Below are positions 7,089 to 59,266 of a stretch of DNA of 64,000 nt, piece after piece. The stretch lies in assembly GCA_945871915.1 (NCBI GenBank), contig CAMBXO010000001.1, positions 1 to 64,000 of the forward strand. The letters run 5' to 3'. The translations under genes and the position numbers were made by a program. Numbering within the stretch: the stretch's first letter is position 1; the number at the start of each line of letters is the position of its first letter. The notes under the pieces are model-generated. The model saw nothing but the letters and a program-made list of their open reading frames with translations. It ran no database searches and was not told the origin of the DNA. Origin of the DNA: Singulisphaera sp. GP187 (GTDB taxonomy: Bacteria > Planctomycetota > Phycisphaerae > Phycisphaerales > SM1A02).

Positions 7089-8111
7089 ATGAAAATTGGA
7101 ATGATCGGTCTTGGACGAATGGGTGCCAACATGACGCTTCGACTTTTAAAGGCCGGGCACAACGTAGTGGTGTGGGACATGAACGCCAATGCCGTCAAAG
7201 AACTCGCCGGGCAAGGCGCTACGCCAGCAGCGGACATGAAGGATCTTGTTGCGAAACTCGATGCTCCACGCTCCGTGTGGATGATGATTCCAACCGCCTT
7301 TGTGGACGAGACCATTGGGAAACTTGCACCGCTGATGTCCAAAGGTGATTGCCTGATTGATGGCGGCAATAGTTATTACAAAGATGACATTCGCCGTTCC
7401 AAAGAATTGGCCGCCAAGGGGCTGGCGTATGTAGATGTTGGAACCAGTGGCGGTGTCTGGGGACTTGAGCGTGGCTATTGCCAGATGATCGGCGGACCCA
7501 AAGATGCAGTGACGCGGTTGGACCCCATCTTTCGGGCACTGGCACCTGGAAAGGGATCTATTGACGCGACTCCGGGGCGAGGTGCGCGAGCTGGCACCAG
7601 TGAGCAGGGTTACTTGCATTGTGGCGAAGCCGGCGGCGGCCACTTTGTGAAGATGGTTCACAATGGCATTGAGTACGGTCTGATGGCTTCGTATGCCGAA
7701 GGCATGAACATTCTCAAGAACGCAAATATCGGCAAGGCCAAGCGTGACATGGACGCTGAAACCACTCCGCTTCGAGAACCCGAGGCCTATCAATACGACT
7801 TTGATCTTGGCGAAGTGGCAGAAGTGTGGCGGCGTGGAAGTGTGATTGCCAGTTGGCTTCTGGATCTCACTGCGGCATCACTGGCCAAGGACCCGCAACT
7901 GGCGAACTTCAACGGCCGCGTGAGCGATTCGGGCGAGGGTCGGTGGACCATCGAGGCCGCGATTGACGAGGGAGTTCCGGCCCATGTGTTGACCGCGGCG
8001 TTGTATGAACGCTTCAGCAGTCGTGGCAACGCCATGTTTGCTGACAAGATTTGTTCAGCGATGCGGTTTGAGTTTGGCGGACACCACGAAAAACCTTCTG
8101 GCGCTCACTGA
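7089..8111 (+). CDS. gnd: 6-phosphogluconate dehydrogenase, decarboxylating (short form)
   Basis: Converts 6-phosphogluconate to ribulose 5-phosphate and CO2 in the oxidative pentose phosphate pathway. It is 340 residues, the short class often NAD-preferring, rather than the ~470-residue form. The Rossmann motif GLGRMGANM is at the N-terminus, GTSGGVWGLERGYCQMIGG is in the middle, and the catalytic region GGGHFVKMVHNGIEYGLM carries the active Lys and His-Asn pair. The ATG follows AAGGAG with 7 bases spacing. The G6PDH gene is 22 bases downstream, so the two oxidative steps are encoded together. A 6-phosphogluconolactonase gene is not present next to them. Confidence 0.95.
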   Translation: MKIGMIGLGRMGANMTLRLLKAGHNVVVWDMNANAVKELAGQGATPAADMKDLVAKLDAPRSVWMMIPTAFVDETIGKLAPLMSKGDCLIDGGNSYYKDDIRRSKELAAKGLAYVDVGTSGGVWGLERGYCQMIGGPKDAVTRLDPIFRALAPGKGSIDATPGRGARAGTSEQGYLHCGEAGGGHFVKMVHNGIEYGLMASYAEGMNILKNANIGKAKRDMDAETTPLREPEAYQYDFDLGEVAEVWRRGSVIASWLLDLTAASLAKDPQLANFNGRVSDSGEGRWTIEAAIDEGVPAHVLTAALYERFSSRGNAMFADKICSAMRFEFGGHHEKPSGAH

Positions 8112-8133
8112 AACACAACTGAGGTGACTCCCT

Positions 8134-9525
8134 ATGCCTGACAGCACTCCATGCGATGCTCTTGTCTTGTTTGGCGCCACGGGCGACCTGGCGCACAAAA
8201 AGACGTTCGACACCATTCAGGCTCTTATCCAACGAGGCCAACTGAAGAGTCCGGTGATTGGCGTGGCAAAGAGCGGCATGACGAAAGAGCAGTTGCTCGA
8301 TCGAGCCAAGGAAGGCATTACCACCTTTGGGCGAGGCGTGGATGCGGCGGCCTTTGCGCAGTTTGCGGCAAACTTTCAGTATGTGGATGGCGACTATGCC
8401 GACTTGAATACCTTTACAAAACTCCGGGCGGCACTCGGTGGAGCCAAGCGACCGCTGCACTATTTGGCCATTCCGCCAAGTGTCTTTGGGCTGGTGACCA
8501 CGCAACTGAAGGCCAGCGGCTGCGCCGACGGAAGCCGCATCGTGATCGAAAAACCATTTGGTCGAGATCTGCAATCGGCTCTGAAACTGAATGAGACCCT
8601 TCACGCCGTCTACGGTGAGCGGGACATTTTTCGGATTGACCACTACCTTGGCAAAGAGGCGACCCAGAATATTTTGTTCACACGGTTCGCCAACGCATTC
8701 CTCGAACCACTGTGGAATCGCAGCCACATCAACCAGATCCAGATCACCATGGCGGAGGACTTTGGCGTTCAGGGTCGAGGTCGCTTTTACGAGGGCGCCG
8801 GATGCCTGCGAGATGTGATTGAGAATCACCTGATGCAGGTGGTTGGGTTCCTTTGCATGGAACCGCCCTTCTGGCCAGACATGGATCGCGTTCGAGATGA
8901 ACAAATCAAATTGTTCCGCGCCATTCGCACGCTCGGCGCCAACGATGTGGTGCGTGGGCAGTTTGATGGGTATCTGAAAGAAGAGGGTGTCGCACCCAAC
9001 AGCCAGGTGGAAACATTTGCGGCAGTGCGGCTGCACATCGACAATTGGAGATGGGAAGGCGTGCCGATTTACCTTCGAGCTGGCAAGTGCATGCCCATGA
9101 CGGCCACCGAGGTTCGCGTGGAGTTCCATCGCCCCCCCTGCGTGGTGTTTCCAAATGAACAGACACCGCCTCGAAATTCTTGGCGATTTCTGTTGAGCCC
9201 TCGAATTGAAATCGGCATGAACCTGCAAGTGAAAGCGGATGGCGAACGCATGGTTGGGCAATCGCTTGAATTGAAGGCCGTGGATCAGCAACCAGATGAA
9301 ATGACCCCGTACGAGCGATTGCTTGGCGATGCGTTGCGTGGCGATCAAACGCTCTTTGCCCGCCAGGATGTGGTGGAAGAGGCGTGGCGCATTGTGGATC
9401 CAATTCTTGGAAGCGTGGTGCCAGTGCATCGCTATGCCAAGGGCATGTGGGGTCCCGAAGTGGTCAATGAGATCCTGCTTCCAGATGGCGGCTGGCATGC
9501 ACCGTTGCTTTCCGGAACTGGTTGA
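8134..9525 (+). CDS. zwf: Glucose-6-phosphate 1-dehydrogenase
   Basis: Oxidises glucose 6-phosphate to 6-phosphogluconolactone with NAD(P). It is 463 residues, near the family norm (~450-500). The N-terminal nucleotide-binding motif is [14 protein letters not shown], with EKPFGRDL near 140. The diagnostic substrate/catalytic segment [15 protein letters not shown] carries the active His and Lys. The C-terminal G6PD domain contains [11 protein letters not shown]. It is cotranscribed with gnd (22-base gap), and a tRNA gene follows 21 bases after its stop. Confidence 0.96.
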
Positions 9526-9546
9526 TCGACGGCTACGCTAGGACAA

Positions 9547-9631
9547 GGGACTGTGGCGGAACAGCAGACGCAGCGGCCTTAAAAGCCGCGGCCGGGAAAC
9601 CGGCGTGTGGGTGCAACTCCCACCGGTCCCA
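9547..9631 (+). tRNA. tRNA-Leu (anticodon UAA)
   Basis: Class II tRNA of 85 bases, CCA not encoded. The acceptor GGGACTG pairs with CGGTCCC (one G-T pair) and the discriminator is A. The anticodon stem GCGGC/GCCGC closes a CTTAAAA loop, giving TAA at 9580-9582. The long variable arm GCCGG-GAAA-CCGGC is typical of leucine tRNAs. The T-stem GTGGG/CCCAC closes a loop TGCAACT instead of TTCRANY. The D-loop GAACAGCAGA lacks the usual GG pair. Both departures affect the contact between the two loops, so they look coordinated. It reads UUA/UUG. Confidence 0.9.
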
Positions 9632-9738
9632 TTGCCTGCGATGGTGAGGCGGCGAACACATAGTCCGTACTGCTTAACGGAAGCTCCCGCCGTTTCAAGA
9701 TTCTGCTTTCCATCCACGCTTTGCGTAGAATCGCGGCC

Positions 9739-11520
9739 ATGCGTCAGGAAGTTCCCTCGGTCAATCAACCGTCCAGTCAGCAGCACCACGGGTGGGATCG
9801 ATTGATGGTGGCCGTGGTGTCGGACGCCGATTGGTGCAGTTGCCTTGTAAGGGATGCGTGCGACCCCAAGGATTACGAACTTCGACTTGTTCCGCCCAAT
9901 GAGCGGGCTTGGCAACGGATCTCAAATCTTTCGCCCTCGGTTGTGGCCGTCGATATTTCTGGCGGCGAGAGTGAAGCCTTTCAGTTACTTCGTGCGCTGA
10001 ATACAAATCAGGAAACCGAGGCCATTCCGGTGATTGCCATGGCCGCGGCGTCCGACGCGCTGCTGCGGGCAGCGGCCTTTGCTGCTGGTGTTGAAGATTT
10101 TGTCCACCGAGGAACAGACCCTGAAGAACTTCGATCTCGCATGCGAACGCTGAGTCGTCTTTCCAATGCCGTGGCTCGCTCGATTGATGCGGAGGCGTCA
10201 CTTCAACGAATGAAGTTGCGACTTCGAGAACGAGAACGGCAATTGGAGGAGTCCGGTCGCCTGGCGCATCATCTGAGAGAGAGCAATCAGTCCGACAGCA
10301 AAGAGCATCAGACCCGCGTGGAGGGCATGGTGCAAGTGGGCTTGGATCTGAACAAGGTGCAGGACTTTCATGTGTTGATGGATCGCATTCTCAGCGAGGC
10401 TCGTCACTTGACCCATGCGGAGGCCGGAACCATTTTTATGCGCGAGGCCAAGAATCTGCGCTTTGCCTATGCGCAGAATGACACACTTGCCAGTCAAGGG
10501 GTTGAGTCACCACGATTCAATACCTACACCCTGCCTGTGAGTGATCATTCCATTGCGGGATGGGTCGGTGCCAGCGGCGAAACGGTCAACATTGCCGATG
10601 CGTACGCCATTGATCCAACGGCCCCCTATCGATTTGATCCAAGCTTTGATCGCATGAGCGGATACAGAACGCGCAGCGTGCTGGCCATGCCGTTGCGAAC
10701 CAGTTTGGGGCAAACAGTTGGCGTGCTGCAAATGCTCAATGCGGTGGATGATCGGGGCCGACCGCGTGACCGGTTTCATGAAACAGATCAGGCCATGCTG
10801 GGGCACTTTGCAAGCATGGCCACGGTGGCCATTGAAAGAACGCAGCTCACGGAGAGCCTGATTGTTCCGTTGCTGCGGCTGGCGGAATTGAATGATCCAT
10901 CGGAGACCGGGCAGCACATTGAGCGCGTGGCTGGATATTCGACCGCGCTGTTTGAGGAATGGGCAAGGCGTCGTGGTCTCGATGGCCCGGCCTTTGAACG
11001 ACAGAGGGATCGCCTTCGCATTGCTGCCAAATTGCACGATGTTGGCAAAGTGGGTGTCGACAAAAATGTGCTTCGACAGAAACGGCGATTGACACCCAGT
11101 GAATTTGAACAGGTGAAATTGCATGTGCTCCGCGGCGCGTATTGCTTTTTGGACTTCAACACGGAGTTCACCGAGGCCGCTCGCGAGGTGGTGCTGAATC
11201 ACCACGAACGCTGGGATGGCAAGGGCTACCCCGGCCATGTGGATGTGAATGGCTTGCCGATTCCCGATCCACGAACGGGCACACCACGGGTTGGCGGAAA
11301 GGTGGGAGACGAGATCCCCCTGTTCGCTCGCGTGGTGGGTCTTGCCGATGTCTTTGACGCACTCTCCAGTGCCCGCTGTTATAAGGAAGCATGGCCGGAG
11401 CGACGCGTTCTGGACACCATTCGAAGCGAATCTGGAAAGCATTTCGACCCTGAACTGGTGGAAATCTTTTTCACCCGGCTTGGCTCCATTCGCGAACTCA
11501 GAGATGCCCACCCCGGCTAA
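9739..11520 (+). CDS. GAF / HD-GYP protein, probable cyclic-di-GMP phosphodiesterase
   Basis: Predicted soluble signalling protein of 593 residues. About 18-140 resembles a receiver: the Asp of VVAVDIS is kept, but the usual Lys position reads FVHRGT, so phosphorylation is doubtful. A charged coiled coil (~150-195) leads into a GAF domain (~205-370). The HD-GYP domain has KLHDVGKVGVDK, LNHHERWDGKGYP and GLADVFDALSS, so the metal ligands and the GYP signature are intact. HD-GYP proteins hydrolyse c-di-GMP to pGpG or GMP. The ATG at 9739 is preferred over a TTG at 9721. It precedes the Wsp-like genes by 46 bases on the same strand and is probably cotranscribed. A link to that pathway is inference. 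Confidence 0.88.
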   Translation: MRQEVPSVNQPSSQQHHGWDRLMVAVVSDADWCSCLVRDACDPKDYELRLVPPNERAWQRISNLSPSVVAVDISGGESEAFQLLRALNTNQETEAIPVIAMAAASDALLRAAAFAAGVEDFVHRGTDPEELRSRMRTLSRLSNAVARSIDAEASLQRMKLRLRERERQLEESGRLAHHLRESNQSDSKEHQTRVEGMVQVGLDLNKVQDFHVLMDRILSEARHLTHAEAGTIFMREAKNLRFAYAQNDTLASQGVESPRFNTYTLPVSDHSIAGWVGASGETVNIADAYAIDPTAPYRFDPSFDRMSGYRTRSVLAMPLRTSLGQTVGVLQMLNAVDDRGRPRDRFHETDQAMLGHFASMATVAIERTQLTESLIVPLLRLAELNDPSETGQHIERVAGYSTALFEEWARRRGLDGPAFERQRDRLRIAAKLHDVGKVGVDKNVLRQKRRLTPSEFEQVKLHVLRGAYCFLDFNTEFTEAAREVVLNHHERWDGKGYPGHVDVNGLPIPDPRTGTPRVGGKVGDEIPLFARVVGLADVFDALSSARCYKEAWPERRVLDTIRSESGKHFDPELVEIFFTRLGSIRELRDAHPG

Positions 11521-11566: not shown

Positions 11567-12082
11567 ATGTCCGGTTATTCTGCTTCGATGCAGGCGTTGA
11601 GATTTACCATTGGCAAGCAGAGTCTGGCCGTCGATCTTCGTTGGATTCGCGAAGTGTGTCCCTTCGTTCACATTCGATCGCTTCCGCACTCGCCCGCATG
11701 GTTGCGAGGGCTGGTGGACTATCACGGGCAATTGCTTCCGGTGCTCGATGGGGGTGTGTTGCTTGGCAGTGAGCCGGTGGATCAAAAGATCGGCGCTCGC
11801 ATTCTGCTGCTGCACGGGCCAATGTCAGATGAGCCAGGAGCGATGACCGCACAGTATGGACTTCTGGTGGATTCCGTTGATTGCCTGCAGCAGATTGACC
11901 GCGCGGACGCGTGGACGGCTCGCGAAGGTCTTCCGGGACTTCCATTCTTGAAAGACGTGATCAATGTTGCCTCCGGTTCAGTCATGGTGTTGGATGCGGC
12001 TCAACTGGCAAGCCTGCACGCCAATGTGCTGCAAGGACACGCCGTGGATGGCCAGCGACTTTCCCTAACGAGTCAACCGTGA
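11567..12082 (+). CDS. CheW-type scaffold protein (WspB position)
   Basis: CheW adaptor of 171 residues that would tether the CheA-type kinase to receptors. The CheW fold starts at about residue 8 (MQALRFTIGKQSLAVDL), with LRGLVDYHGQLLPVLDGG as the conserved core. An in-frame ATG at 11588 would give a start like many CheW proteins, and neither candidate has a clear ribosome binding site. The stop overlaps the CheR start by 4 bases. First of two CheW genes flanking the methyltransferase, exactly as WspB and WspD flank WspC in Pseudomonas wsp operons. Confidence 0.88.
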   Translation: MSGYSASMQALRFTIGKQSLAVDLRWIREVCPFVHIRSLPHSPAWLRGLVDYHGQLLPVLDGGVLLGSEPVDQKIGARILLLHGPMSDEPGAMTAQYGLLVDSVDCLQQIDRADAWTAREGLPGLPFLKDVINVASGSVMVLDAAQLASLHANVLQGHAVDGQRLSLTSQP

Positions 12083-13263
12083 GTGGATTGTCAGATTGGT
12101 TTCAGGCGAAGTGGAGTTTGGACTCCTCGGTGGTGGTGCAAGCAGAGGCTGAAGCCAAGCGGCGTGCACAGGGTTGGGCTCAACACGATCACCATTACTT
12201 GGAACGCCTGAAATCCGATCCATCGGAGGCGGAGGCTGTCTTGGCTACGGTGATTCCGCCAGAGTCGTGGCTGTTCCGACAGCCGGCATCGTTTGAGTTC
12301 ATTCGAGCGTGGCTTGCGGCACGATCGAATCAACCAGTTCGCATGTTGAGCTTGGGGTGCGCTCGCGGCGCCGAGGCGTATTCACTTGCCGCCACAGCAG
12401 CCAGTCTGGGGCGAACGGCCGCCAACACCGAAATTGTTGCGATCGATCTGCATGCTGGGCACTTGGCGGCGGCCGCACGCGGCACCTGCCAACCCTTGGC
12501 GCAACGAAGCCCGCTGCCGGAGTGGGCGGCGGCATGGTTTCTGCCGGACACCAGTGGCGACATTCGCCTTCGCGATGAGGCACTCAACATGATTTGCTGG
12601 AAACAGGGCGACATTCTGAAAGACACTTCCATTGGTGTCGCGGACATTGTGATGTGCCGCAATGTTGCGATCTATCTTTCCGAAACTGCACGCAAGGAAC
12701 TTGGCAAGCGACTCTCCACCATGGTGAAACCCGATGGCGTGTTGTGCCTTGGACATGCGGATCCTCAGGCGTTGTGGAAGGATTCGTTTGTCAGCGCCGC
12801 GCAAACCGGAGGATTTGTTTTTGTGCCTCGCACTGCTGCGGTGAAACACCCAGAACCCGTTGCCACGGTTACTCGCCGACCACCAATCGTGGCCCCACTC
12901 GAACATGCGAAGCCCGCCCCACTGCCTGCCGTCGTACGCGCACCCGCCGCCCGTGATGACTTAATTGAAATTCAATCGCTTGCTGATCAAGGTGCCTTGC
13001 TGGAGGCAGCGGCCCGATTGGAACACGTGCTTGCCGCTGATGGTTTGCGGGCAGCAGGATGGTCACTGCTTGGATCGATCCGACTTGGGCAGAACCGAGA
13101 CGCGGACGCTGAAGAGTGCTTTCGTAAGGTGGTGTACCTTGCTCCCGAGGATCCCTTGTCGCTCTTACAGTTAAGCGAGTTGGCTCAGCGACGAGGTGAT
13201 GTTCACACCGCAGATCGAATGCGGCTTCGAGCAGCGCGTGCTGTCACGAAGGAGGCGTCATGA
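12079..13263 (+). CDS. CheR-type receptor methyltransferase with TPR tail (WspC-like)
   Basis: S-adenosylmethionine-dependent methyltransferase that would methylate chemoreceptor glutamates. 394 residues from a GTG that overlaps the upstream CheW stop by 4 bases. The N-terminal helical part is short. IPPESWLFRQPASFEFI and the SAM loop MLSLGCARGAEAYSLA (normally SxxCSTGEEPYS) are recognisable, followed by DIVMCRNVAIYLSE. After about residue 290 there is a Pro/Ala linker, then tetratricopeptide-like helices to the end. A CheR with C-terminal TPRs is the WspC architecture. No methyl-accepting receptor gene is present in the window, so its substrate must lie elsewhere or be absent. Confidence 0.87.
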   Translation: MSGLSDWFQAKWSLDSSVVVQAEAEAKRRAQGWAQHDHHYLERLKSDPSEAEAVLATVIPPESWLFRQPASFEFIRAWLAARSNQPVRMLSLGCARGAEAYSLAATAASLGRTAANTEIVAIDLHAGHLAAAARGTCQPLAQRSPLPEWAAAWFLPDTSGDIRLRDEALNMICWKQGDILKDTSIGVADIVMCRNVAIYLSETARKELGKRLSTMVKPDGVLCLGHADPQALWKDSFVSAAQTGGFVFVPRTAAVKHPEPVATVTRRPPIVAPLEHAKPAPLPAVVRAPAARDDLIEIQSLADQGALLEAAARLEHVLAADGLRAAGWSLLGSIRLGQNRDADAEECFRKVVYLAPEDPLSLLQLSELAQRRGDVHTADRMRLRAARAVTKEAS

Positions 13264-13871
13264 GCGGCGATGTTCACCAACCTTCCATGCCAGCCGTTTC
13301 ACCAGATTCTTCTTCCAGCGCCCTTGCGGCGACCGGTCGATCGATGGGGCGAGGAAAACTTTCTGACGCGGCGGTGGCCGAGCAAACGCAATCCCTTGCG
13401 CAGCCACTTGAACAAGAACAGGCGGCAAGCATTTCGCTTCTGTGCTTTCGAGTTGCCAATGAACGGTTTGCGTTGCCGGCACCCTGCGTTGAGCGGGTAT
13501 TTCTGGTTCCGGTCATCCGCCGAATTCCCCACCGCAATCGCCCCGCATTTCGAGGCATGGTGGCTCACGAAGGCGAGATTCTGCTGATGGGATCGCTTGA
13601 GCGACTTCTGAATTTGGAGAGCCCTGTCACCACGGACCCAGCCAAAGCGCGCGCCGTGCTGCTGGCCCCCGCCGGGCGCGGCTGGGCTTTTGAAGTGAAT
13701 CAAATTGACGGCGTGGTGCAGGTGAAGGAAACAGATCTTCGCGCTCCGCCAAGCACCGTGGCTCGCGGACTTGGAAGTGCCACACGATGTCTTGTGCAGT
13801 TGCCCGGTGGCGACGCATCCGTGCTCGACCCTGATGTGCTTCGACAGGGATGGGAGGCAGCCATCGTATGA
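13260..13871 (+). CDS. CheW-type scaffold protein with N-terminal extension (WspD-like)
   Basis: Second CheW adaptor of the cluster, 203 residues. A low-complexity Ser/Ala/Gln-rich extension of about 55 residues precedes a CheW domain (SLLCFRVANERFALPAP, FRGMVAHEGEILLMGSLERL, AFEVNQIDGVVQVKETDLR). WspD proteins carry the same kind of N-terminal extension. The ATG overlaps the CheR stop by 4 bases, and its own stop overlaps the CheA start by 4 bases, implying translational coupling and matched amounts. Confidence 0.88.
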   Translation: MSGDVHQPSMPAVSPDSSSSALAATGRSMGRGKLSDAAVAEQTQSLAQPLEQEQAASISLLCFRVANERFALPAPCVERVFLVPVIRRIPHRNRPAFRGMVAHEGEILLMGSLERLLNLESPVTTDPAKARAVLLAPAGRGWAFEVNQIDGVVQVKETDLRAPPSTVARGLGSATRCLVQLPGGDASVLDPDVLRQGWEAAIV

Positions 13872-16141
13872 GTGGATTCGGTGGACTGGATCTTTTTGAA
13901 CTCTTCAAGAGCGAAGTGGAAACCCACAGCGCTGCGCTGAATGTTGGACTGTTGCAACTGGAGGCCAATGTCAACGACCCGGTTCCGATTGAGGCGTTGA
14001 TGCGAGCGGCCCATTCCATCAAGGGCGCTGCCCGCGTGGTTGGTATTGACTTGGCCGTCACGCTGGCACATGAAATGGAAGACGCCATGGTGCGGGTGCA
14101 GAAGAATCAGGAGGCGTGCAGCCCTATTCGAGTGGATCAACTTTTGCAGGCGACCGATCTTCTTACACAACTCACCGGGATTACGGAAGCTGACGTTGCC
14201 GCGTGGAGCGGAGACAAGACGGCTGAAGTGAATGCCCTCGTGACCGCACTTGCTACGCCGATCACATCGAGCATGGTTGCTCCCGCGCCGGCGATCACCA
14301 TGGTGACACAGCCGGTCACGCTGGATGTTCCCGCCGCACAGCGAATTGGATCCGTTCCTGAAAAACCACCGGAGACCATTCTGACCCCCCGCCATGCAGA
14401 GGGCCCAACGGGTGATGCCAGAACCGTCCGAGTGAATGCGGACAATCTGGATCGCATGATGCGGCTTGCGGGCGAGAGCATGGTTGAGGGGCGGCGCTAT
14501 CGACAGGTTCAAACGAGTTTGCTGGATCTCAAGAACCGTTTGCGTGGCGCGCGAAACCTTTTGGAAACAGAATCTCAACAACAATCCGCGGGCGATGTGC
14601 AGGAGGCTCATCATCAGATTGTTGAACTTGAGACGGTCCTTCAGCAGCACCGTGGAATGCTTGAGGCCACCTTTCGCCGGACGGAAGAAGTTGGAACGCG
14701 CCTGTACCACGAAGTGATCGGCAGTCGCATGCGGCCCTTTGGTGATGCCACCGCTGGGTTCCCTCGCATGGTGCGGGATCTGGCCAAACGCCTCGGCAAG
14801 CAGGTTCGATTTGAAGTGGAAGGCACCAACACGCCAGTCGATCGAGACATTCTTGCTCGGCTCGATGCGCCGCTGAATCACATTCTTCGCAATGCGATGG
14901 ATCATGGTGTGGAGGGTCCGCAGGCAAGGACCGCCGCCGGGAAATCGGAGAGTGCGTCGCTGCGTCTTGAGGCGCGTCACCACGCAGGCATGTTGGAGAT
15001 TCGGATCCGGGATGATGGAAACGGCATTGATCCGGAGCGCATTCGAACCAAGGTGGTGGAGCGAAGGTTGCAATCCGAGCCAGTGGCCAAGGGGCTTGGA
15101 CGGGCGGAATTGCTTGAGTTCTTGTTTCTCCCTGGATTTTCGACTGCCGCAGCGGTCACCGAGGTGAGCGGACGCGGGGTGGGTTTGGATGTGGTGCATC
15201 AGACCATGCGAGATCTTGGTGGAACGGTGCGTGTGGAAAGCGAAATGGGCCGTGGCACCACCTTTGTCATGAGCCTGCCCATTACCTTGAGCGTGATTCG
15301 CGCGGCCCTTGTTCAGATCTTTGGTGAAACCATTGCCTTTCCGCTTGCACGGATCGAGCGCATTGTGCGGACGGATCGTGAGAGTCTTCGCAGCACCGAG
15401 GGACGATTGCAATGCGATCTTGACGGACACGCCATCGGCGTGCTGCGAGCCAGTGAACTTCTTGACCTTGACGGCGAGGTCAAGAATCAGAGCGATCAGG
15501 TCAGCCTGCTGGTGATTGGCGGCGAACACGATCGCTGCGCGCTGATGGTGGATGGGTTCCTTGGGGAACGCGATCTGGTGGTGCGACCGATGGATGCTCG
15601 ATTGGGTCGTGTACCTCATGTGGCGGCAGCGGCCATTGATGACGATGGACTTCCGCTTTTAGTGATGGATGTGGAAGACCTTTTGGTTTCCATTCGCCGT
15701 GGGCTTGGAGAGGGCGCCATCCGTGGCGTGTCCAGCCAACGACTTGCGGGCGCTACGAGTCACCGCAAACGCGTGCTGGTGGCCGACGACAGCATTACCG
15801 TTCGAGAAGTGGAGCGGCAGATGCTGCGGAGAATGGGATTCGATGTTGAAGTGGCGGTGGATGGCGTGGACGCATGGAATCAACTCAGCGCCGGATCGTT
15901 TGACTTGCTGGTGACCGATGTGGATATGCCCCGAATGAACGGCATTGAGTTGGTCCGAACGCTTCGACGCGATCCCCGATGGACCAATCTTCCCGTGGCG
16001 ATTGTGAGTTACAAGGATCGAGCCGAAGATCGCGCCGCTGGCCTAGCAGCCGGTGCCAACGCGTATCTCACCAAGGGCTCGTTTCAGGATCAGACATTTA
16101 TTTCCACCATCACCGACCTTGTCGGACAGCCCTCCACGTGA
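13868..16141 (+). CDS. Hybrid CheA histidine kinase with C-terminal receiver (WspE-like)
   Basis: Chemosensory kinase of 757 residues. The Hpt domain has phosphoacceptor His49 in AAHSIKGAARVVG. After a linker to about 185 come the dimerisation helices (~195-290) and the HATPase with IRDDGNGID and VSGRGVGLDVV. A CheW-like regulatory domain (~480-610) follows, then a receiver at ~635-757 with ADDS acid pair and phosphoacceptor Asp in VTDVDMP. CheA with a fused receiver is the WspE architecture, where the receiver acts as a phosphate sink. ATGA overlap with the upstream CheW gene and GTGA overlap with cheB. Expected targets are the CheB-like protein and the REC-phosphatase downstream. Confidence 0.93.
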   Translation: MSGFGGLDLFELFKSEVETHSAALNVGLLQLEANVNDPVPIEALMRAAHSIKGAARVVGIDLAVTLAHEMEDAMVRVQKNQEACSPIRVDQLLQATDLLTQLTGITEADVAAWSGDKTAEVNALVTALATPITSSMVAPAPAITMVTQPVTLDVPAAQRIGSVPEKPPETILTPRHAEGPTGDARTVRVNADNLDRMMRLAGESMVEGRRYRQVQTSLLDLKNRLRGARNLLETESQQQSAGDVQEAHHQIVELETVLQQHRGMLEATFRRTEEVGTRLYHEVIGSRMRPFGDATAGFPRMVRDLAKRLGKQVRFEVEGTNTPVDRDILARLDAPLNHILRNAMDHGVEGPQARTAAGKSESASLRLEARHHAGMLEIRIRDDGNGIDPERIRTKVVERRLQSEPVAKGLGRAELLEFLFLPGFSTAAAVTEVSGRGVGLDVVHQTMRDLGGTVRVESEMGRGTTFVMSLPITLSVIRAALVQIFGETIAFPLARIERIVRTDRESLRSTEGRLQCDLDGHAIGVLRASELLDLDGEVKNQSDQVSLLVIGGEHDRCALMVDGFLGERDLVVRPMDARLGRVPHVAAAAIDDDGLPLLVMDVEDLLVSIRRGLGEGAIRGVSSQRLAGATSHRKRVLVADDSITVREVERQMLRRMGFDVEVAVDGVDAWNQLSAGSFDLLVTDVDMPRMNGIELVRTLRRDPRWTNLPVAIVSYKDRAEDRAAGLAAGANAYLTKGSFQDQTFISTITDLVGQPST

Positions 16142-17160
16142 ACATTGCTCTGGTCAACGATCTTCCACTTGCCCTAGAGGCTTTGCGCCGAGCCGTTGCC
16201 ATGCTTCCGGGTGCAGTCGTGGTCTGGACGGCCATGAATGGTGAAGAAGCCATCCATGCGTGTCATCGCGTGCGGCCCGATCTGATTTTGATGGACATGA
16301 TCATGCCGGTCATGGACGGCGTGGAAGCAACGCGCCGCATTATGAAGGAGTGCCCCTGCCCCATTCTTGTGGTGACCGCCACCGTGACTGGCAATGCCAC
16401 ACGCGTGTATGAAGCCTTGGGTGCCGGTGCGGTGGATGCAATCGAAACACCAACGCTTACCTCCACCGAAGGAGCCGAGCGATTGTGTCGACGCATCGAA
16501 GCCATTGGTCGTTATTCACGCCGAGTTGACGCCACAACGCACATTGGGTTGCCCACTCGCACCAAAGGTGTGGCCACCACGGCCTCGCGGCTGGTGCTGA
16601 TTGGTTCAAGCACCGGTGGTCCGCAGGCTCTTGCCACCATTCTGAAATCTTGGGCGAGGCCCATTCCGTTTGCTGCGGTGGTGGTGCAACACTTGGATCC
16701 AACATTTGTTCCGGGTCTTGCGGAGTGGCTTTCGAGAGATTCAGCTCACAATGTCCAAGTGGCCAAGGCAGGCATGGTGCCCGCACCGGGAACGATTTGG
16801 ATGGCGATGGGGCCAAAGCACTTGGTCTTTGATTCCGCGGGCCGCTTGTGCAATCGCGAACCTGATCCGCACGACTTGCATGTACCCAGTGTGAATGCGC
16901 TCTTTCAAAGTGCTGCTGAATCCGGCCTTTCGCCCGGTGCGGCGGCCCTGCTTACCGGCATGGGAAGCGATGGAGCCACCGGACTGCTTCAACTGAAAAC
17001 GGCTGGCTGGACCACCATTGCACAAGATCAGGCAAGTAGTGTGGTGTGGGGCATGCCTGGAGCGGCCACTCGCCTTCACGCAGCAACTCGTACTCTTCCA
17101 CTCCACTCGATCGGTGCCACACTCTATACGGCGTGCACCATGAAACCTCGCACACCATGA
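16138..17160 (+). CDS. CheB-type receptor methylesterase (WspF-like)
   Basis: Response-regulator methylesterase, 340 residues from a GTG overlapping the kinase stop. The receiver begins MNIALVNDLPLALEALRRA with phosphoacceptor Asp in LMDMIMPVMDG. The usual receiver Lys is replaced in DAIETPTL. The ND pair and this TP motif match my memory of Pseudomonas WspF rather than classical CheB. The esterase domain keeps the catalytic triad: Ser in GSSTGGP, His in VVVQHLDP and Asp in GMGSDGA. It removes receptor methyl groups when phosphorylated, giving adaptation. The stop overlaps the next gene by 4 bases. Confidence 0.92.
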   Translation: MNIALVNDLPLALEALRRAVAMLPGAVVVWTAMNGEEAIHACHRVRPDLILMDMIMPVMDGVEATRRIMKECPCPILVVTATVTGNATRVYEALGAGAVDAIETPTLTSTEGAERLCRRIEAIGRYSRRVDATTHIGLPTRTKGVATTASRLVLIGSSTGGPQALATILKSWARPIPFAAVVVQHLDPTFVPGLAEWLSRDSAHNVQVAKAGMVPAPGTIWMAMGPKHLVFDSAGRLCNREPDPHDLHVPSVNALFQSAAESGLSPGAAALLTGMGSDGATGLLQLKTAGWTTIAQDQASSVVWGMPGAATRLHAATRTLPLHSIGATLYTACTMKPRTP

Positions 17161-18347
17161 TGACTCCTTCCATCGCGTCCACAAAGTCCATCGAAGTTCC
17201 CACCGTCATTCTGTTGGTGGATGACCAGCCCATCATCGCCGCAGCCGTATACAAGATGATTGCGAGTCATAAGGAATGGGCGTTTCATTTCTGCGCCGAG
17301 CCACTGCAAGCAGTCGCCAAGGCATTGGAATTGAAACCCACCGTCATTCTGCAGGATCTTGTGATGCCCGGAATGGATGGCTTAGATCTGGTGAAGGCCT
17401 ATCGAGCAGAATCATCGCTTCGAGAAACGCCATTGATTGTGCTGTCATCAAAGGAAGAAGCCACCACCAAGGCTGCGGCGTTTGCACTGGGCGCCAATGA
17501 TTATCTTGTAAAACTTCCTGATCCCGTTGAGTTGGTCGCTCGCATCCGGCATCACTCAGATGGCTTCAAAGCAACGCTTGAACGCAATGCGGCCTTTGCT
17601 GCACTGGCTGCGAGTGAGCGCCATTTGCAAGAGGAGAACCGCCGCGCTGCCGACTATGTCCGCAGTTTGCTTCCAGCACCACTCACGGAAGGCCCCGCCA
17701 CAACGCAGTGGCGATTCGTTCCCAGCGAAAGCCTTGGAGGCGATGCCTTTGGATACCACTGGCTTGATGCATCGAGATTGGCCGTGTATTTGCTGGATGT
17801 CTGTGGTCACGGCGTTGGCCCTGCGCTGCTTGGAGTGAGCGCGATGAATGTGATCAGTTCCAATGCAATTCCCAATTGTGATATGGGCAATCCCGCCGCA
17901 GTGCTGGAAGGGCTCAACGTTCTCTTTCCAATGGAGAAGCACAATGAGATGTTCTTCACGCTGTGGTACGGGGTGCTGAATGTCGAAACGGGCAATTTAA
18001 AATGGAGCGGCGGATCGCATCCACCCACACTTTTGTATGCACCCGATGGATCCATGACCACGCTGATTTCGCAAGGGTTGATGGTGGGCGCGGCTCTTGG
18101 GATTCCCTACGAGACTTCAGAGGTGACCGTGCAGCGAGGATCACGGCTGGTGCTGTATAGCGATGGCATTTACGAATTAGAAAAACCTGACGGGCACTTT
18201 GCCTCGCTTGAAGAATTTACGGACGCCGCAAAGGATTGCACCGGTGCACAAGACGACCTCGACACAATCTTGAAGCATGCTCGCACGGTCCAAGTCTCGA
18301 ACAACTTCAAAGATGATGTGAGTCTGCTTGAAGTGCGTTACGGCTAA
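17157..18347 (+). CDS. WspR-like receiver fused to PP2C/SpoIIE-type serine phosphatase
   Basis: Response regulator of 396 residues. The receiver (~15-135) has LLVDDQP, phosphoacceptor Asp67 in VILQDLVMPGMDGL, and GANDYLVKLPDPVELVARI. These segments closely match what I recall of the Pseudomonas WspR receiver. A short coiled coil (~140-170) follows, and then a SpoIIE/RsbU-type phosphatase instead of GGDEF, with LGGDAFG, LLDVCGHGVGPAL, GGSHPP and LVLYSDGIYE giving the metal-binding aspartates. Such phosphatases act on phosphoserine anti-sigma antagonists of the STAS type. It overlaps the CheB-like gene by 4 bases and ends the cluster, converging on the Gfo/Idh/MocA gene. Regulation by the upstream kinase is inferred from operon position. 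Confidence 0.92.
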   Translation: MMTPSIASTKSIEVPTVILLVDDQPIIAAAVYKMIASHKEWAFHFCAEPLQAVAKALELKPTVILQDLVMPGMDGLDLVKAYRAESSLRETPLIVLSSKEEATTKAAAFALGANDYLVKLPDPVELVARIRHHSDGFKATLERNAAFAALAASERHLQEENRRAADYVRSLLPAPLTEGPATTQWRFVPSESLGGDAFGYHWLDASRLAVYLLDVCGHGVGPALLGVSAMNVISSNAIPNCDMGNPAAVLEGLNVLFPMEKHNEMFFTLWYGVLNVETGNLKWSGGSHPPTLLYAPDGSMTTLISQGLMVGAALGIPYETSEVTVQRGSRLVLYSDGIYELEKPDGHFASLEEFTDAAKDCTGAQDDLDTILKHARTVQVSNNFKDDVSLLEVRYG

Positions 18348-19686: not shown

Positions 19687-21960
19687 TCAACCGATGAGCA
19701 GAAGAAGGTAGGAGACATCGCCGGAGTCTACATCGCCACTTCCGTCAAGATCGCCGGCACACCCTGGGCACGGTCCAAAGTCCAGAAGAATCATCGAGAG
19801 ATCGCTGCTGGTGACCAGTCCGTCGCCATCGAGATCGCCTTCGACCATGTTCGGGCATTCAAATTCATAGACACCAAGATCGTCGATAGCGGCATCCACC
19901 ACGGAATCGCTGCCAAGATCTCTTGCAATAAACCGCAACTTCACGGTTCCATTCGTGGAGGCCAGGAAATCTGCCACACGAAATCGCTTGGTGACCCAGG
20001 CATTCTTGTTCTCGGTTACCAACTCCATCTGCACCCATGTGGAGCCGCCATTTCCAGAAATCTGAATCGGCATGGAATCGGAATTGCCATTACTGCCAGT
20101 GTTGTTGCTGTACCAGCGAGAATAATTGACATAGGGATCGGTCATGCCCGCAACGGAATAACTCGGCGAAGTCAGTGTGGTGGATCCGCCGTCGAGATCG
20201 GAACTTGCTGCCCCCCCACCTGGCGGACCATTGCCGGTAATCCAGCACTTGGTGCCTGTTGGCGTGTGATCATCGGCCGGTTGAGCAGCATTGGCCGATG
20301 GATCGAGCAACTGCCAGGTGCCGGCATACGCGGTGTCACCGACGCCGTTGACTACCCAGCCCGTTGACACTTCAGCAAGGTCCACCGACTTTTGCGTATA
20401 CGACGAAACCGCGAATGAATGACTTGGCTCGCCATTGGGATACGAAACGCTGCTGCCATCCGAAATGAAAGCCTCAATGGACCATTCGATTTCAACACCG
20501 CACTCAACTTGTGGACCGATCGCCGTCCATTCATTTCCCGAACCGTGCGTCATCGGTGTGGTGGTGGACACGCCGTCGATTGTGGTGTGCAACACCACCC
20601 CACCAGCCGCAATCGAATATCCGTCGACCGGCACAATCTGAGTCACCAGTTCTTGTCCGCGAGGATCAAACATGTCTGGTTCACCATCTGGGAAACTGAT
20701 GTCCACTGGTTCCGGACCGACCTTCCACACAAAGAGGCCTCGCTCAATGTCCGATCCGAGCACAGTGCCAGAGGGAAGGAACGGATAATTACTCCACAAG
20801 CCATTGAAGCTGGCCGCCGGAAGGTTGTCGTCCTCTGGATGCGTGTCAAACCATGCAACCTCAACCAGATTGCTTGGGTTGGTGCGATCAAAGATTCGTA
20901 ATCCGCTGGTGTAATTGCTGCAAAGCAACCGGTTGCCAAGCACATATTCATTGTGATCGATGGACTTCACGCCGGTGGTGTAGGTGCCCGCAGCGACTGG
21001 CGCCGCAAGATTGGAAAGATTGACAATGCGACCGATGTTGTACAGGCCTCGATTGCCTTCATCGAGTTCATCATTGATGTACCCATATTGAAAGTCCGGA
21101 CTCACCCACATCTGGTGACAGAAATTCGCGTTGGCATAGGTGAACCGACCAATCGTGGTGATGCTCGCCTTGTTGGTCATGTCCAAGATGTCAACGCCGG
21201 TATCCGTCTGCCCGCCATTGAATCCGCCACATGCAAAGAACACCTCTTTGCCGGCGTAGGGACCGGTGGTGTAATTCACCACCAATCCATCGTGGGTGTA
21301 TTTGGGATTCCACGAGGACACCAAGGTGGGAAGCAGTGGATTGGGTTCCAAGTTGTACACCCGAACACCCTGACTGCCACCGCCCATGCGGTAGAGGTAT
21401 CCAGTTTGCTCATTGATGATCATGGTGTGCGTGGATGGAGTTGCGGCGGTTGAGGCAACCGTGGCGGCCAGCGTGACCACACCGTTATCAATCTGTGAAA
21501 GATCGAAGACTTGAATCCCACCGCCGCCTTCGCTGACGGCATAGGCATACGTTTTGTAGGTCTTCACATTGCGCCACATGCTGGTGGGACCTGCAATAAA
21601 TTTCACAATGCGCGAGGAACTTGGATTGGTCACTTCAACAAATCCGGTTCCCGCGGAGAGGCCCATAAGCGCGTACTCACGGCCCGATGGGCTGACATAA
21701 CCCCACACATCGTTTCCGCTGGTATTGGCTGCGTTAAAGGTGTTCACTGGAAACCACGCCATCAACCGAACACCGTCGCTGCGGAAGGTGGTTGTGGACT
21801 TTTCAAGAGAGCTGCCTTGCTCGTCGGCCAGCCACACGGGACCGATGAATGGACCCTTGAAATCCTTGGCTTTGGGATCACCTTCGTGAGCTGTGGCCAC
21901 AAGACTTGCAAGCAGGATGCACGACAACACCGAAGTGGAACGAAATCGAAGTGGAATCAT
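19687..21960 (-). CDS. Secreted choice-of-anchor-B protein with dockerin-type C-terminus, copy 1
   Basis: Large exported protein of 757 residues with a signal peptide (hydrophobic SVLSCILLASLVATA then HEGDPKAKDF). The long LVIVD-type propeller region (to ~400) has repeated segments such as YAYAVSEGGGGIQVFDLSQI and SIDHNEYVLGNRLLCSNYTSG, matching choice-of-anchor-B proteins. A middle beta-domain and a jelly-roll-like region (~530-700) follow. The last ~50 residues hold two EF-hand calcium loops (DLDGDGLVTSSDL and DLDGSGDVDSGDV) separated by FGPCPGC, the GC-type dockerin of Phycisphaerales. It is a tandem paralogue of the gene 8 bases upstream. Role unknown; surface attachment is likely. Confidence 0.85.
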   Translation of the reverse strand: MIPLRFRSTSVLSCILLASLVATAHEGDPKAKDFKGPFIGPVWLADEQGSSLEKSTTTFRSDGVRLMAWFPVNTFNAANTSGNDVWGYVSPSGREYALMGLSAGTGFVEVTNPSSSRIVKFIAGPTSMWRNVKTYKTYAYAVSEGGGGIQVFDLSQIDNGVVTLAATVASTAATPSTHTMIINEQTGYLYRMGGGSQGVRVYNLEPNPLLPTLVSSWNPKYTHDGLVVNYTTGPYAGKEVFFACGGFNGGQTDTGVDILDMTNKASITTIGRFTYANANFCHQMWVSPDFQYGYINDELDEGNRGLYNIGRIVNLSNLAAPVAAGTYTTGVKSIDHNEYVLGNRLLCSNYTSGLRIFDRTNPSNLVEVAWFDTHPEDDNLPAASFNGLWSNYPFLPSGTVLGSDIERGLFVWKVGPEPVDISFPDGEPDMFDPRGQELVTQIVPVDGYSIAAGGVVLHTTIDGVSTTTPMTHGSGNEWTAIGPQVECGVEIEWSIEAFISDGSSVSYPNGEPSHSFAVSSYTQKSVDLAEVSTGWVVNGVGDTAYAGTWQLLDPSANAAQPADDHTPTGTKCWITGNGPPGGGAASSDLDGGSTTLTSPSYSVAGMTDPYVNYSRWYSNNTGSNGNSDSMPIQISGNGGSTWVQMELVTENKNAWVTKRFRVADFLASTNGTVKLRFIARDLGSDSVVDAAIDDLGVYEFECPNMVEGDLDGDGLVTSSDLSMILLDFGPCPGCAGDLDGSGDVDSGDVSYLLLLIG

Positions 21961-21968
21961 GAGTGGGA

Positions 21969-24242
21969 TTAACCTAACAGCAATAGGAGATACGCGACGT
22001 CGCCAAAGTCAACGGTGCCGCTGGCATCAAGGTCGCTGGAACAATTTGGACAAGGCCCAAAGTCCAGCAAGACAAAGGCAAGGTCACTGGTGGTCACGAG
22101 ACCGTCCCCGTCAAGGTCGCCCTCAACTGGACAACTGGTCTCGCTCACTTGAAGATCGTCAATCGCAGCCTCCACAACGGAGCCGCTGCCAAGATCGCGA
22201 GCAATAAATCGAAGTTTGATGGTGCCATTGGTGGAGGCAAGAAAGTCATTCACTCGGAAGGACTTCGAAACCCATTCTCCAGCATTTTCGGTGACCAGTT
22301 CCAACTGCACCCACGAAGACCCTCCGTTGCCAGAGATCTGAATTGGCATGGAGTCGTTGTTGGGGTCGGCTCCCATGGAATTGCTGTACCACCGAAAGTA
22401 ATTCACGCTTGGATCCGTCATGCCGCCAAGGGAATAGGCAGGCGAAGTCAATGTGGTGGTGCCGCCATCCACATCCGCCGCGCCAAGACTTCCACCGACG
22501 AGACCTGCACCGGTGACCCAGCACCTTGCCCCGCTGGATGAATGATCATTCTCAGGCTGTGCACTGGTTCCAACGGGATCTGCCTGTGTCCAAATGCCGA
22601 GTGTGGCATTGTCGCCGGTCAATCCCACCACCCACCCGGTCGAAATCTCACATGGGTCATCAACCGCAATCACGGTTCCGCTTCCACTGACAGCCAGATT
22701 GGATCCAGACGGTGGCACTTGGACGGAGGTGCCATCAGAAACAAACACTTCAATCGTCCAACTCACGGTCTCACCACACACCGTCGAAGGAGAAACCGCT
22801 GCCCACAGATTGCCGTCTTCTTGCGCCATCTGTGTATCGGTGGTCACACCATCCACAGTGGTTTGAAGCACGACGCCGCCGGCACCCACCGACATGCCTG
22901 CGATCGGAATCACTTCAACGGCGACCCGCTGACCGCGAGGATCAAACATTTCGGGCTCGCCTTCCGGAAATGAAATGCTGACCGGCTCAGGCCCAAGACG
23001 CCAGACGAAGAGACCTCGCTCGATATCCGAACCAAGAATTGTTCCCGATGGAAGGTAGGGAAAGTTGCTCCAGAGTCCGTTGAAGGTTGCGCCCGTACTC
23101 GCGTCATCATTGGGGTAGGTATCAAACCACGCCACTTGCGACGGTGCATTGCCGCTGGTGATGTCAAAGACTCGAAGGCCCGTGGTGTAGTTGCTGCAGA
23201 AGAGTTTGTTGCCCTTCACATACTCGTTGTGATCAATCGAATTCAGTCCGGTGTTGTAGGTGCCTGCGGAAACCGGCGCGGCCAGATTGCTGACATCCAC
23301 AATGCGACCAACCGCGTAAATGCCCCGGTTGTCCTCGTCAAGTTCATCATTGATGTAGGCGTAGTGGCGATCTTCGCTCAGCCACACCTGATGGCAATAA
23401 TTTGCATTGGTGTAGGTGTAGCGACCAAGCACGGTAATCGCAGCCTTGTTGGTGACATCCAGAATGTCCATGCCGGTATCGGTGGAACCGCCATTCAAAC
23501 CACCACACGCAAAGAAAATTTCCTTGCCCGCGTAGGGACCAGTTTCGTAGTTGTAGACGACACCATCATGCGTGTACTTGGGATTCCATGAGGCCACGAG
23601 CGCGGGTTGCGCTGGATTGGTGTTGAGGTTGTAAATCCGAAGCCCGCTGCTGCCACCGCCCATGCGATAGAGGTAGCCAGTCTTCTCATTGATGATCATG
23701 GTGTGCGTTGCAGGAGTGGCGGCCGCCGCGCCGACACTTGGCAACTCCGTCACAACACCGTTATCGATTTGCGATAGATCAAACACCTGAATGCCGCCGC
23801 CGCCTTCACTGACTGCATAGGCGTAGGTCTTGTAGGTCTTGATGTTTCGCCACATGCTGGTGGGACCGGTGATGAATTTCACAATCGCCGATGACCCCGG
23901 GTTGGTCACTTCAACAAATCCGGTTCCATTGGACAAACCCATCAAGGCATATTCACGACCCGACGCACTGACGTACCCCCACACATCGTTGCCACTGGTA
24001 TTGACCGCGGCGAAAGTGTTTGCAGGAAACCACGCCATCAGCCGCACGCCGCTACTGGCAAATGGACTGCTCGCCTTCTCAAGCGTTGAGCCTTGCTCAT
24101 CGGCCAGCCATGCTGGACCAACGACCGCTCCCTTGAAGTCGCGTGCCTTCGGGTCACTCTCGTGGGCCACCGCCAGCAGCGCCCCCATGAAAGCGGCAAC
24201 AGCGGCGAAAGTTTGAAATCGAATTTTTGGAATCGTGAACAA
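21969..24242 (-). CDS. Secreted choice-of-anchor-B protein with dockerin-type C-terminus, copy 2
   Basis: Paralogue of the downstream gene with the same order of domains: signal peptide, LVIVD-like propeller, beta-domains and a two-loop dockerin tail (DLDGDGLVTTSDL, FGPCPNC, DLDASGTVDFGDV). I choose the TTG at 24242, with TAAGGA 8 bases upstream. This start gives MFTIPKIRFQTFAAVAAFMG, a clean signal peptide, and exactly 757 residues, the same length as copy 1. A longer frame from 24422 or an ATG at 24269 would put an implausible basic leader before the signal. The 120 bases before it separate it from the peroxidase gene on the same strand. Confidence 0.85.
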   Translation of the reverse strand: MFTIPKIRFQTFAAVAAFMGALLAVAHESDPKARDFKGAVVGPAWLADEQGSTLEKASSPFASSGVRLMAWFPANTFAAVNTSGNDVWGYVSASGREYALMGLSNGTGFVEVTNPGSSAIVKFITGPTSMWRNIKTYKTYAYAVSEGGGGIQVFDLSQIDNGVVTELPSVGAAAATPATHTMIINEKTGYLYRMGGGSSGLRIYNLNTNPAQPALVASWNPKYTHDGVVYNYETGPYAGKEIFFACGGLNGGSTDTGMDILDVTNKAAITVLGRYTYTNANYCHQVWLSEDRHYAYINDELDEDNRGIYAVGRIVDVSNLAAPVSAGTYNTGLNSIDHNEYVKGNKLFCSNYTTGLRVFDITSGNAPSQVAWFDTYPNDDASTGATFNGLWSNFPYLPSGTILGSDIERGLFVWRLGPEPVSISFPEGEPEMFDPRGQRVAVEVIPIAGMSVGAGGVVLQTTVDGVTTDTQMAQEDGNLWAAVSPSTVCGETVSWTIEVFVSDGTSVQVPPSGSNLAVSGSGTVIAVDDPCEISTGWVVGLTGDNATLGIWTQADPVGTSAQPENDHSSSGARCWVTGAGLVGGSLGAADVDGGTTTLTSPAYSLGGMTDPSVNYFRWYSNSMGADPNNDSMPIQISGNGGSSWVQLELVTENAGEWVSKSFRVNDFLASTNGTIKLRFIARDLGSGSVVEAAIDDLQVSETSCPVEGDLDGDGLVTTSDLAFVLLDFGPCPNCSSDLDASGTVDFGDVAYLLLLLG

Positions 24243-24250
24243 TTCGTGGG

Positions 24251-24256
24251 TCCTTA
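24251..24256 (-). promoter_or_regulatory. Ribosome binding site for the TTG start at 24242
   Basis: TAAGGA on the minus strand with 8 bases to the TTG. It supports a non-ATG start that restores a normal signal peptide and the same length as the tandem paralogue. Confidence 0.6.
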
Positions 24257-24360
24257 CTGAGCCTTCCATGGCACTCTGCCGACAACACGGCATCACATCG
24301 GATGCACGCCCCCGCAAGCCATCATGAACCGATTCCCGCTGTTTGGGAAGCATTTTTTTT

Positions 24361-58918: not shown

Positions 58919-59266
58919 ATGCAGACCTTCGTGCAAGAGCGCGATGGCGACCTCTTGATCATTGGTGCCGACGGCGGACTGAATCGAGATACCGCCCACC
59001 AGTTGATTGAAATAGTGGGACGGCATGTGGATTCCGGTGCCCAATCGATCATCGTGGATTGTTCAAAATTGCAGGTGATTTCAAGCGCCGGGATCGGAGC
59101 CCTGTTGCAACTGCACCGCGCCATGAAACACCGCGGAGCAGACGTTCGCCTTGCATGTGTCAGTGGGTTGGTGGTTCAGGCGTTACGGCTCATGCGTCTT
59201 GACGGCGTCTTTGCGATCAGTGGCGATGTGAATGCGGCCAGACTTTCTTTTCGGCCTGCCCCCTGA
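58919..59266 (+). CDS. STAS-domain protein, anti-sigma factor antagonist type
   Basis: 115 residues forming one STAS domain (SpoIIAA/RsbV-like). LIIGADGGLNRDTAHQLIEIV opens it, and IIVDCSKLQVISSAGIGALL is the characteristic Asp-x-Ser...Ser-Ser-Ala-Gly loop where the antagonist is phosphorylated. Such proteins release a sigma factor or other target when dephosphorylated by PP2C phosphatases. No anti-sigma kinase is adjacent. The REC-PP2C protein at 17157-18347 is the only such phosphatase in the window and a conceivable partner. It follows kdsD with a 2-base gap. Confidence 0.88.
   Translation: MQTFVQERDGDLLIIGADGGLNRDTAHQLIEIVGRHVDSGAQSIIVDCSKLQVISSAGIGALLQLHRAMKHRGADVRLACVSGLVVQALRLMRLDGVFAISGDVNAARLSFRPAP

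Follow-up and report, generated by a model that had tools for sequence, protein, structure and literature searches.

We analyzed a window of 64,000 nucleotides, positions 1 to 64,000 of contig CAMBXO010000001.1 (assembly GCA_945871915.1, Singulisphaera sp. GP187), which carries a chemosensory gene cluster on its plus strand at positions 11567 to 18347. Six overlapping frames encode, in order, CheW, CheR-TPR, CheW, CheA-REC, CheB, and a response regulator in which a receiver (REC) is joined to a PP2C-type phosphatase (REC-PP2C). The cluster is of the Wsp type. Judged from sequence and a predicted structure, its last protein is a chimera, the receiver and helical stalk of WspR joined to a PP2C domain of the RsbU/RssB/SiaA type. 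WspR itself is a diguanylate cyclase, which makes cyclic diguanylate (c-di-GMP). Our preferred reading, to which we give a probability of roughly 0.6, is a Wsp-type array of the alternative cellular functions (ACF) class in which the regulator at the WspR position carries a PP2C domain acting on a STAS-type antagonist, with a paralogous HD-GYP protein as an additional arm. Rather than making c-di-GMP, the array probably operates a gene-control switch.

The Wsp-type cluster and its output protein

An initial annotation, made from the letters alone, had read the six genes as following the wspB-C-D-E-F-R order. All six are present in that order and on that strand (Table 1), an arrangement that relatives conserve, with start codons now refined: cheR starts at a GTG (12079) that overlaps the stop codon of the first cheW gene as GTGA, cheB starts at a GTG (16138, read from the sequence) in a GTGA overlap with the preceding cheA stop, and the ATG of the REC-PP2C gene overlaps the cheB stop. 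The receiver domains of the cluster match Pfam with E values of 1e-17 to 1e-24. CheA is 42.5% identical, over nearly its full length, to WspE of Pseudomonas sp. 2FG, and CheB is 43% identical over the protein to WspF of the same strain. The CheB receiver has a TP motif at the place of the expected receiver Lys, as in WspF, and the resemblance suggested earlier was borne out. We regard a long minus-strand reading frame over cheA (13700 to 15619) as a by-product of the coding frame.

The best PDB matches of the REC-PP2C protein are to WspR (3i5a, E value of 1.6e-48; 3bre, 1.8e-47) over residues 13 to 161; the next receiver, PleD, reached only 3e-14, and RssB, itself a REC-PP2C protein, matched most of the protein's length at 5e-24. 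An AlphaFold2 model was built from 24 homologues (mean predicted local distance difference test score of 91.4). Residues 15 to 167 of the model, comprising the receiver and stalk helix, superpose on 3bre and 3i5a at 1.7 and 1.4 Å with 56 and 54% identity, respectively, and the stalk helix (residues 123 to 171) is continuous with receiver helix 5. The receiver phosphorylation residues D22, D23, D67, and K119 are invariant in all 24 homologues; Asp67, the predicted phospho-acceptor, is encoded at 17355 to 17357. These matches confirm the likeness to WspR that had been noted first.

A phosphatase domain stands where WspR has GGDEF, as had also been proposed. The SpoIIE model of Pfam, which aligns with residues 178 to 396, scores 130 bits against a curated cut-off of 25, and the fold matches agree. 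The motif Asp residues D196, D214, D336, D386, and D387, the presumed metal ligands of the family, are invariant in 24/24 homologues. A comparison with NCBIfam returned no specific model for REC-PP2C.

Over its full length, the model is closest in fold to Pseudomonas aeruginosa RssB (3f7a, E value of 6.9e-28; 3eq2, Z score of 28.4), which has been described as an adaptor whose phosphatase domain is active (PMC12143880). By analogy, phosphorylated REC-PP2C could bind a regulator and deliver it to a protease, catalysis being secondary. We consider this highly improbable: the protein scores 95.7 on the NCBI RssB model for Pseudomonas (NF045505), against a cut-off of 700 bits, its receiver belongs to the WspR clade described below, and every homologue retains the motif Asp residues, for which an adaptor would have no need.

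Table 1. Positions of the cluster genes, output-protein domains, and related features (window coordinates unless a locus is named)
Feature	Position	Strand	Evidence
REC-like/GAF/HD-GYP gene, directly upstream of cluster	9721..11520	+	Pfam HD_5 4.9e-23, GAF 1.4e-14, Response_reg 2.6e-7
CheW (WspB position)	11567..12082	+	Pfam CheW 5.8e-17
CheR methyltransferase, C-terminal TPR (WspC position)	12079..13263	+	Pfam CheR 7.8e-30; weak TPR matches, residues 308-387
CheW (WspD position)	13260..13871	+	Pfam CheW 2.1e-16
CheA: Hpt, dimerization, HATPase, CheW, REC (WspE position)	13850..16141	+	Domain matches; WspE homology
CheB (WspF position)	16138..17160	+	Pfam CheB_methylest 3.2e-49
REC-PP2C output protein, 396 amino acids (WspR position)	17157..18347	+	Domain matches, PDB matches, predicted model
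WspR-type receiver and helical stalk, residues 15-171	17199..17669	+	Superposition on 3bre/3i5a; conservation
PP2C (SpoIIE/RsbU-type) phosphatase domain, residues 178-396	17688..18344	+	Pfam SpoIIE 1.3e-37
Lone STAS (anti-sigma-factor-antagonist-like) gene, ~40 kilobases from cluster	58919..59266	+	Pfam STAS 6.6e-15; TIGR00377 50.8 bits, just under cut-off
GAF-HD-GYP protein with the genome's second Wsp-type receiver	L114 8276-10021	-	Domain match

Receiver phylogeny and distribution of outputs

An outgroup-rooted tree was computed for 46 receivers, among them 26 of the Wsp type and eight from other REC-PP2C proteins. The 26 Wsp-type receivers, which carry five types of output, form one clade with support of 100/100; the receiver of this cluster thus shares a clade with WspR. 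The receivers of the eight other REC-PP2C proteins fall outside it, and a larger, less resolved tree agrees with the WspR-clade placement. A tree constrained to hold all REC-PP2C receivers as one group was rejected (approximately unbiased test, p-AU of 1.5e-5). Within the WspR clade, the receivers on GGDEF and on hybrid histidine kinases make up a subgroup (92/93), with the PP2C receivers branching off beneath and around it. The data therefore do not make GGDEF the original output, and the idea that PP2C had "replaced" GGDEF is not borne out as to direction.

Two pairings bear on how outputs were acquired. HD-GYP and PP2C receivers of the type encoded by neighboring genes in genomes G059 and G086 are each other's closest relatives (100/97), and the PP2C receiver of this cluster pairs with the one on HD-GYP in the same genome (100/97, the latter on a long branch). 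Such closely related receivers on different outputs point to receiver duplication followed by output exchange in Wsp-type cassettes. Wsp-type receivers carry GGDEF in Pseudomonas, Cupriavidus, Roseomonas, and others; a hybrid histidine kinase in Pedosphaera-type Verrucomicrobiota, Sumerlaeota, and one planctomycete; and a class III nucleotide cyclase at locus L046, where the Wsp-type cluster has tandem outputs (7526 to 10149), one receiver-class III cyclase and one receiver-PP2C. An unusual output occurs at L203 (304 to 2340, minus strand), where a Wsp-type receiver is fused to an FAD/NAD(P)-binding domain (Pfam NAD_binding_9, 4.7e-30). Chemosensory clusters at L065, L067, and L071 (Alphaproteobacteria and Desulfarculus) include a REC-PP2C protein whose receiver is not of the Wsp type, which looks like an independent link between chemosensory genes and PP2C.

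The terminal gene of planctomycete clusters, a survey of which the initial annotation had proposed, was examined in 151 genomes of the order and 392 genomes of the phylum. Full-length REC-PP2C of the Wsp type is encoded by 30 of the 151 genomes. CheA is found in 29, every one of which has REC-PP2C, and in the 30th REC-PP2C genome (G090) the cluster lies at a contig end. The REC-PP2C gene is directly 3′ of cheB in nearly all of the carriers. Outside the order, the phylum sample yielded 14 matches: 12 Wsp clusters, complete or partial, with REC-PP2C as the last gene, one cluster ending in a REC-kinase, and one orphan REC-PP2C. None of the 14 has a terminal GGDEF. PP2C is the usual terminal Wsp output across the sampled Planctomycetota.

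Proposed pathway, switch partners, and the c-di-GMP arm

All three CheW domains of the genome (98% complete) sit in this cluster, which is its only chemosensory array. The cluster of this genome contains no wspA-type chemoreceptor gene, and an HD-GYP gene stands there instead; a chemoreceptor gene is found inside the clusters at L044, L045, L124, L125, L207 to L210, and L212. Elsewhere in the genome are three chemoreceptor genes whose signaling domains are related to those of Wsp clusters. FliG was not found in this genome (G000) or in G023, G057, and G045, and it is present in four other relatives. With FliG absent and the cluster kept, the system is retained where flagellar chemotaxis is no option.

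In the pathway that we favor, chemoreceptors encoded elsewhere would couple through the two CheW proteins to the CheA-REC kinase, with CheR-TPR and CheB adapting the chemoreceptors. CheA would phosphorylate Asp67 of the WspR-type receiver, and the shared helical stalk would relay receiver dimerization to the PP2C domain, as precedents in WspR, RsbU, and RssB suggest. In RsbU, which has been compared with RssB, a dimeric helical linker drives the phosphatase switch element (PMC12143880), a mechanism that would fit the stalk of REC-PP2C. The switched-on phosphatase would then dephosphorylate a STAS-type antagonist, and the freed antagonist would capture an RsbW-like kinase or anti-sigma protein. 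In parallel, the paralogous receiver and stalk on GAF-HD-GYP probably let the same kinase stimulate c-di-GMP breakdown.

Operons of homologues support the last two steps of the PP2C branch. At L215 (7497 to 9427, minus strand), an orphan Wsp-type REC-PP2C gene precedes first a STAS gene (Pfam 2.1e-16) and then an RsbW-like HATPase_c_2 gene (5.4e-20), with no che genes nearby, and at L048 (Puniceicoccaceae) a HATPase_c_2 gene (2.2e-27) lies directly 3′ of REC-PP2C. Rsb-type partner switching has this layout, which argues for an antagonist switch, and the L215 row offers a compact system for testing the mechanism. In the present genome, STAS and HATPase_c_2 genes form two adjacent pairs, and each of the seven cluster-bearing relatives searched likewise has HATPase_c_2 genes next to STAS genes. 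Assignment of a specific pair to REC-PP2C by phylogenetic profile was tried and failed.

Several points weigh against this pathway. Neither of the two pairs, nor any other STAS or HATPase_c_2 gene in this genome, is linked to the cluster, and such pairs do not track REC-PP2C across the order, where one or both are retained by many genomes that lack the cluster. The lone STAS gene of the window is one possible substrate; it does not follow REC-PP2C presence across the order. Phosphotransfer from CheA to REC-PP2C is put forward from gene linkage and receiver homology only, and RssB, a sigma-S adaptor, shows that a protein of REC-PP2C layout can serve as an adaptor for a protease. The antagonist switch envisaged in the initial annotation thus finds backing in homologues that adjoin STAS and/or RsbW-like genes, and none in the neighborhood of the cluster itself.

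A STAS protein dephosphorylated by PP2C might also control c-di-GMP enzymes and not a sigma factor, as in SiaABC, which would make PP2C and HD-GYP two arms of one c-di-GMP circuit. SiaABCD is a published case of PP2C/STAS/kinase control of a diguanylate cyclase (PMC9239204), and SiaA-PP2C is the best domain-level structural match of our model (residues 150 to 396; 2.6 Å over 240 residues), although a close structural fit within the PPM phosphatases does not reveal the substrate. The genome encodes three GGDEF proteins, an HD-GYP protein directly upstream of the cluster, and a Wsp-type REC-GAF-HD-GYP protein elsewhere. However, no STAS-GGDEF linkage was seen, and the orphan homologues adjoin RsbW-like genes and no GGDEF gene; we regard the SiaABC-like circuit as unlikely. 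A separate WspR-GGDEF partner, raised at the outset as a candidate for the real output, was not found in searches of the genome. Only one of the three GGDEF proteins is a REC-GGDEF, and its receiver is an unrelated one. That protein (L126, 1447 to 2385, minus strand) has no phospho-acceptor Asp in its receiver (VILLAIEL).

Sequence evidence indicates that the c-di-GMP link of the Wsp system is not lost in this genome, and the view that the pathway would control an anti-sigma switch rather than a second messenger was not supported. The genome's other Wsp-type receiver carries GAF-HD-GYP, and a Wsp-type receiver on HD-GYP occurs in 23 of the 30 genomes with REC-PP2C, this one among them (each of the 23 domain-checked), versus 4 of the 121 others; these counts are drawn from related genomes and do not represent independent events. 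The operons of G059 and G086 include the REC-HD-GYP gene, placed between cheB and REC-PP2C. The recurrence of this second receiver favors a branched array that joins partner switching to c-di-GMP breakdown. The same two observations, a common REC-GAF-HD-GYP protein and its place inside some operons, could mean that HD-GYP is the main output of the array and PP2C a minor or phosphate-sink branch. This is very unlikely, since it is PP2C and not HD-GYP that is present in 29/29 genomes with CheA, and seven genomes have PP2C without an HD-GYP partner.

A broader proposal, which we hold tentatively and at slightly less than even odds, is that the WspR receiver and stalk form a plug-in cassette through which one kinase family drives at least five outputs (GGDEF, PP2C, HD-GYP, class III cyclase, and hybrid histidine kinase). 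The standard arrangement in Planctomycetota would be a branched array that serves both partner switching and c-di-GMP breakdown, and PP2C may match or exceed GGDEF in age.

The HD-GYP gene directly upstream of the cluster ends 46 nucleotides before the first cheW gene and likely shares its transcription unit. It retains the HD and HHE..DGKGYP motifs, fills in this genus and close relatives the place that the chemoreceptor (wspA) gene takes in more distant ones, and recurs in the equivalent place at L035, L036, L037, L039, L041, and L042. Its receiver is degenerate, with the acidic pair and Lys lost and the phospho-site Asp changed to Glu in L037, L041, and L042, which makes it an unlikely phosphorylated output. 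No promoter-like match was found on the plus strand between 9400 and the cluster; in scans for promoter- and terminator-like sites, promoter counts were below chance and terminator counts near chance. On the minus strand at 19687 to 24422 are two tandem, secreted-looking paralogues of 757 and 817 amino acids, each of which ends in a dockerin-like D-x-D-G repeat region.

Comparison with known systems

A 2012 survey catalogued CheR-TPR (ACF) clusters in which REC is fused to Ser/Thr phosphatase 2C, a metal-dependent phosphatase, a nucleotidyl cyclase, a histidine kinase, or GGDEF (PMC3447774). The initial annotation knew of no description of such a swap; REC-PP2C in CheR-TPR clusters was already on record, not tied to WspR in the accessible part of the survey, whose domain counts there show neither a single WspR-type receiver cassette nor PP2C as the rule in Planctomycetota. 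A literature search, which did not take in subscription papers or preprints, returned no description of a WspR-type receiver on PP2C or of the planctomycete pattern. What appears to be new is the tie between the REC-PP2C proteins of chemosensory clusters and the WspR-type receiver and stalk, and the modular cassette is the point of interest. Through a receiver module familiar from WspR, it would connect chemoreceptor arrays with partner switching of the Rsb type, and it suggests a likely function for the only chemosensory array of a lineage where FliG was not found. The same kinase type, receiver, and stalk with different effectors amount to a natural experiment in output swapping, which opens to direct test whether the stalk by itself carries the signal and which of the two, the c-di-GMP system or the phosphatase system, derived from the other.

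The cluster resembles Wsp (WspA to WspF and WspR; Pseudomonas and relatives, ACF class) in its B-C-D-E-F-R gene order, its CheR-TPR protein, and its CheA with a C-terminal REC domain; it differs in having a PP2C output in place of GGDEF and, in this genus, an operon without a chemoreceptor gene. The layout of receiver, helical linker, and PP2C is that of RssB from P. aeruginosa and RsbY from Bacillus cereus. The receivers of those two proteins, however, are not shown to be of the WspR type, and neither protein is connected with a chemoreceptor array; the hybrid kinase RsbK is the presumed partner of RsbY (PMC3231935). With the PPM phosphatases RsbU, SpoIIE, and SiaA, the output protein shares the PP2C fold, the motif Asp residues, and a helical linker entering the phosphatase domain, whereas its sensor part, unlike theirs, is a WspR-type receiver.

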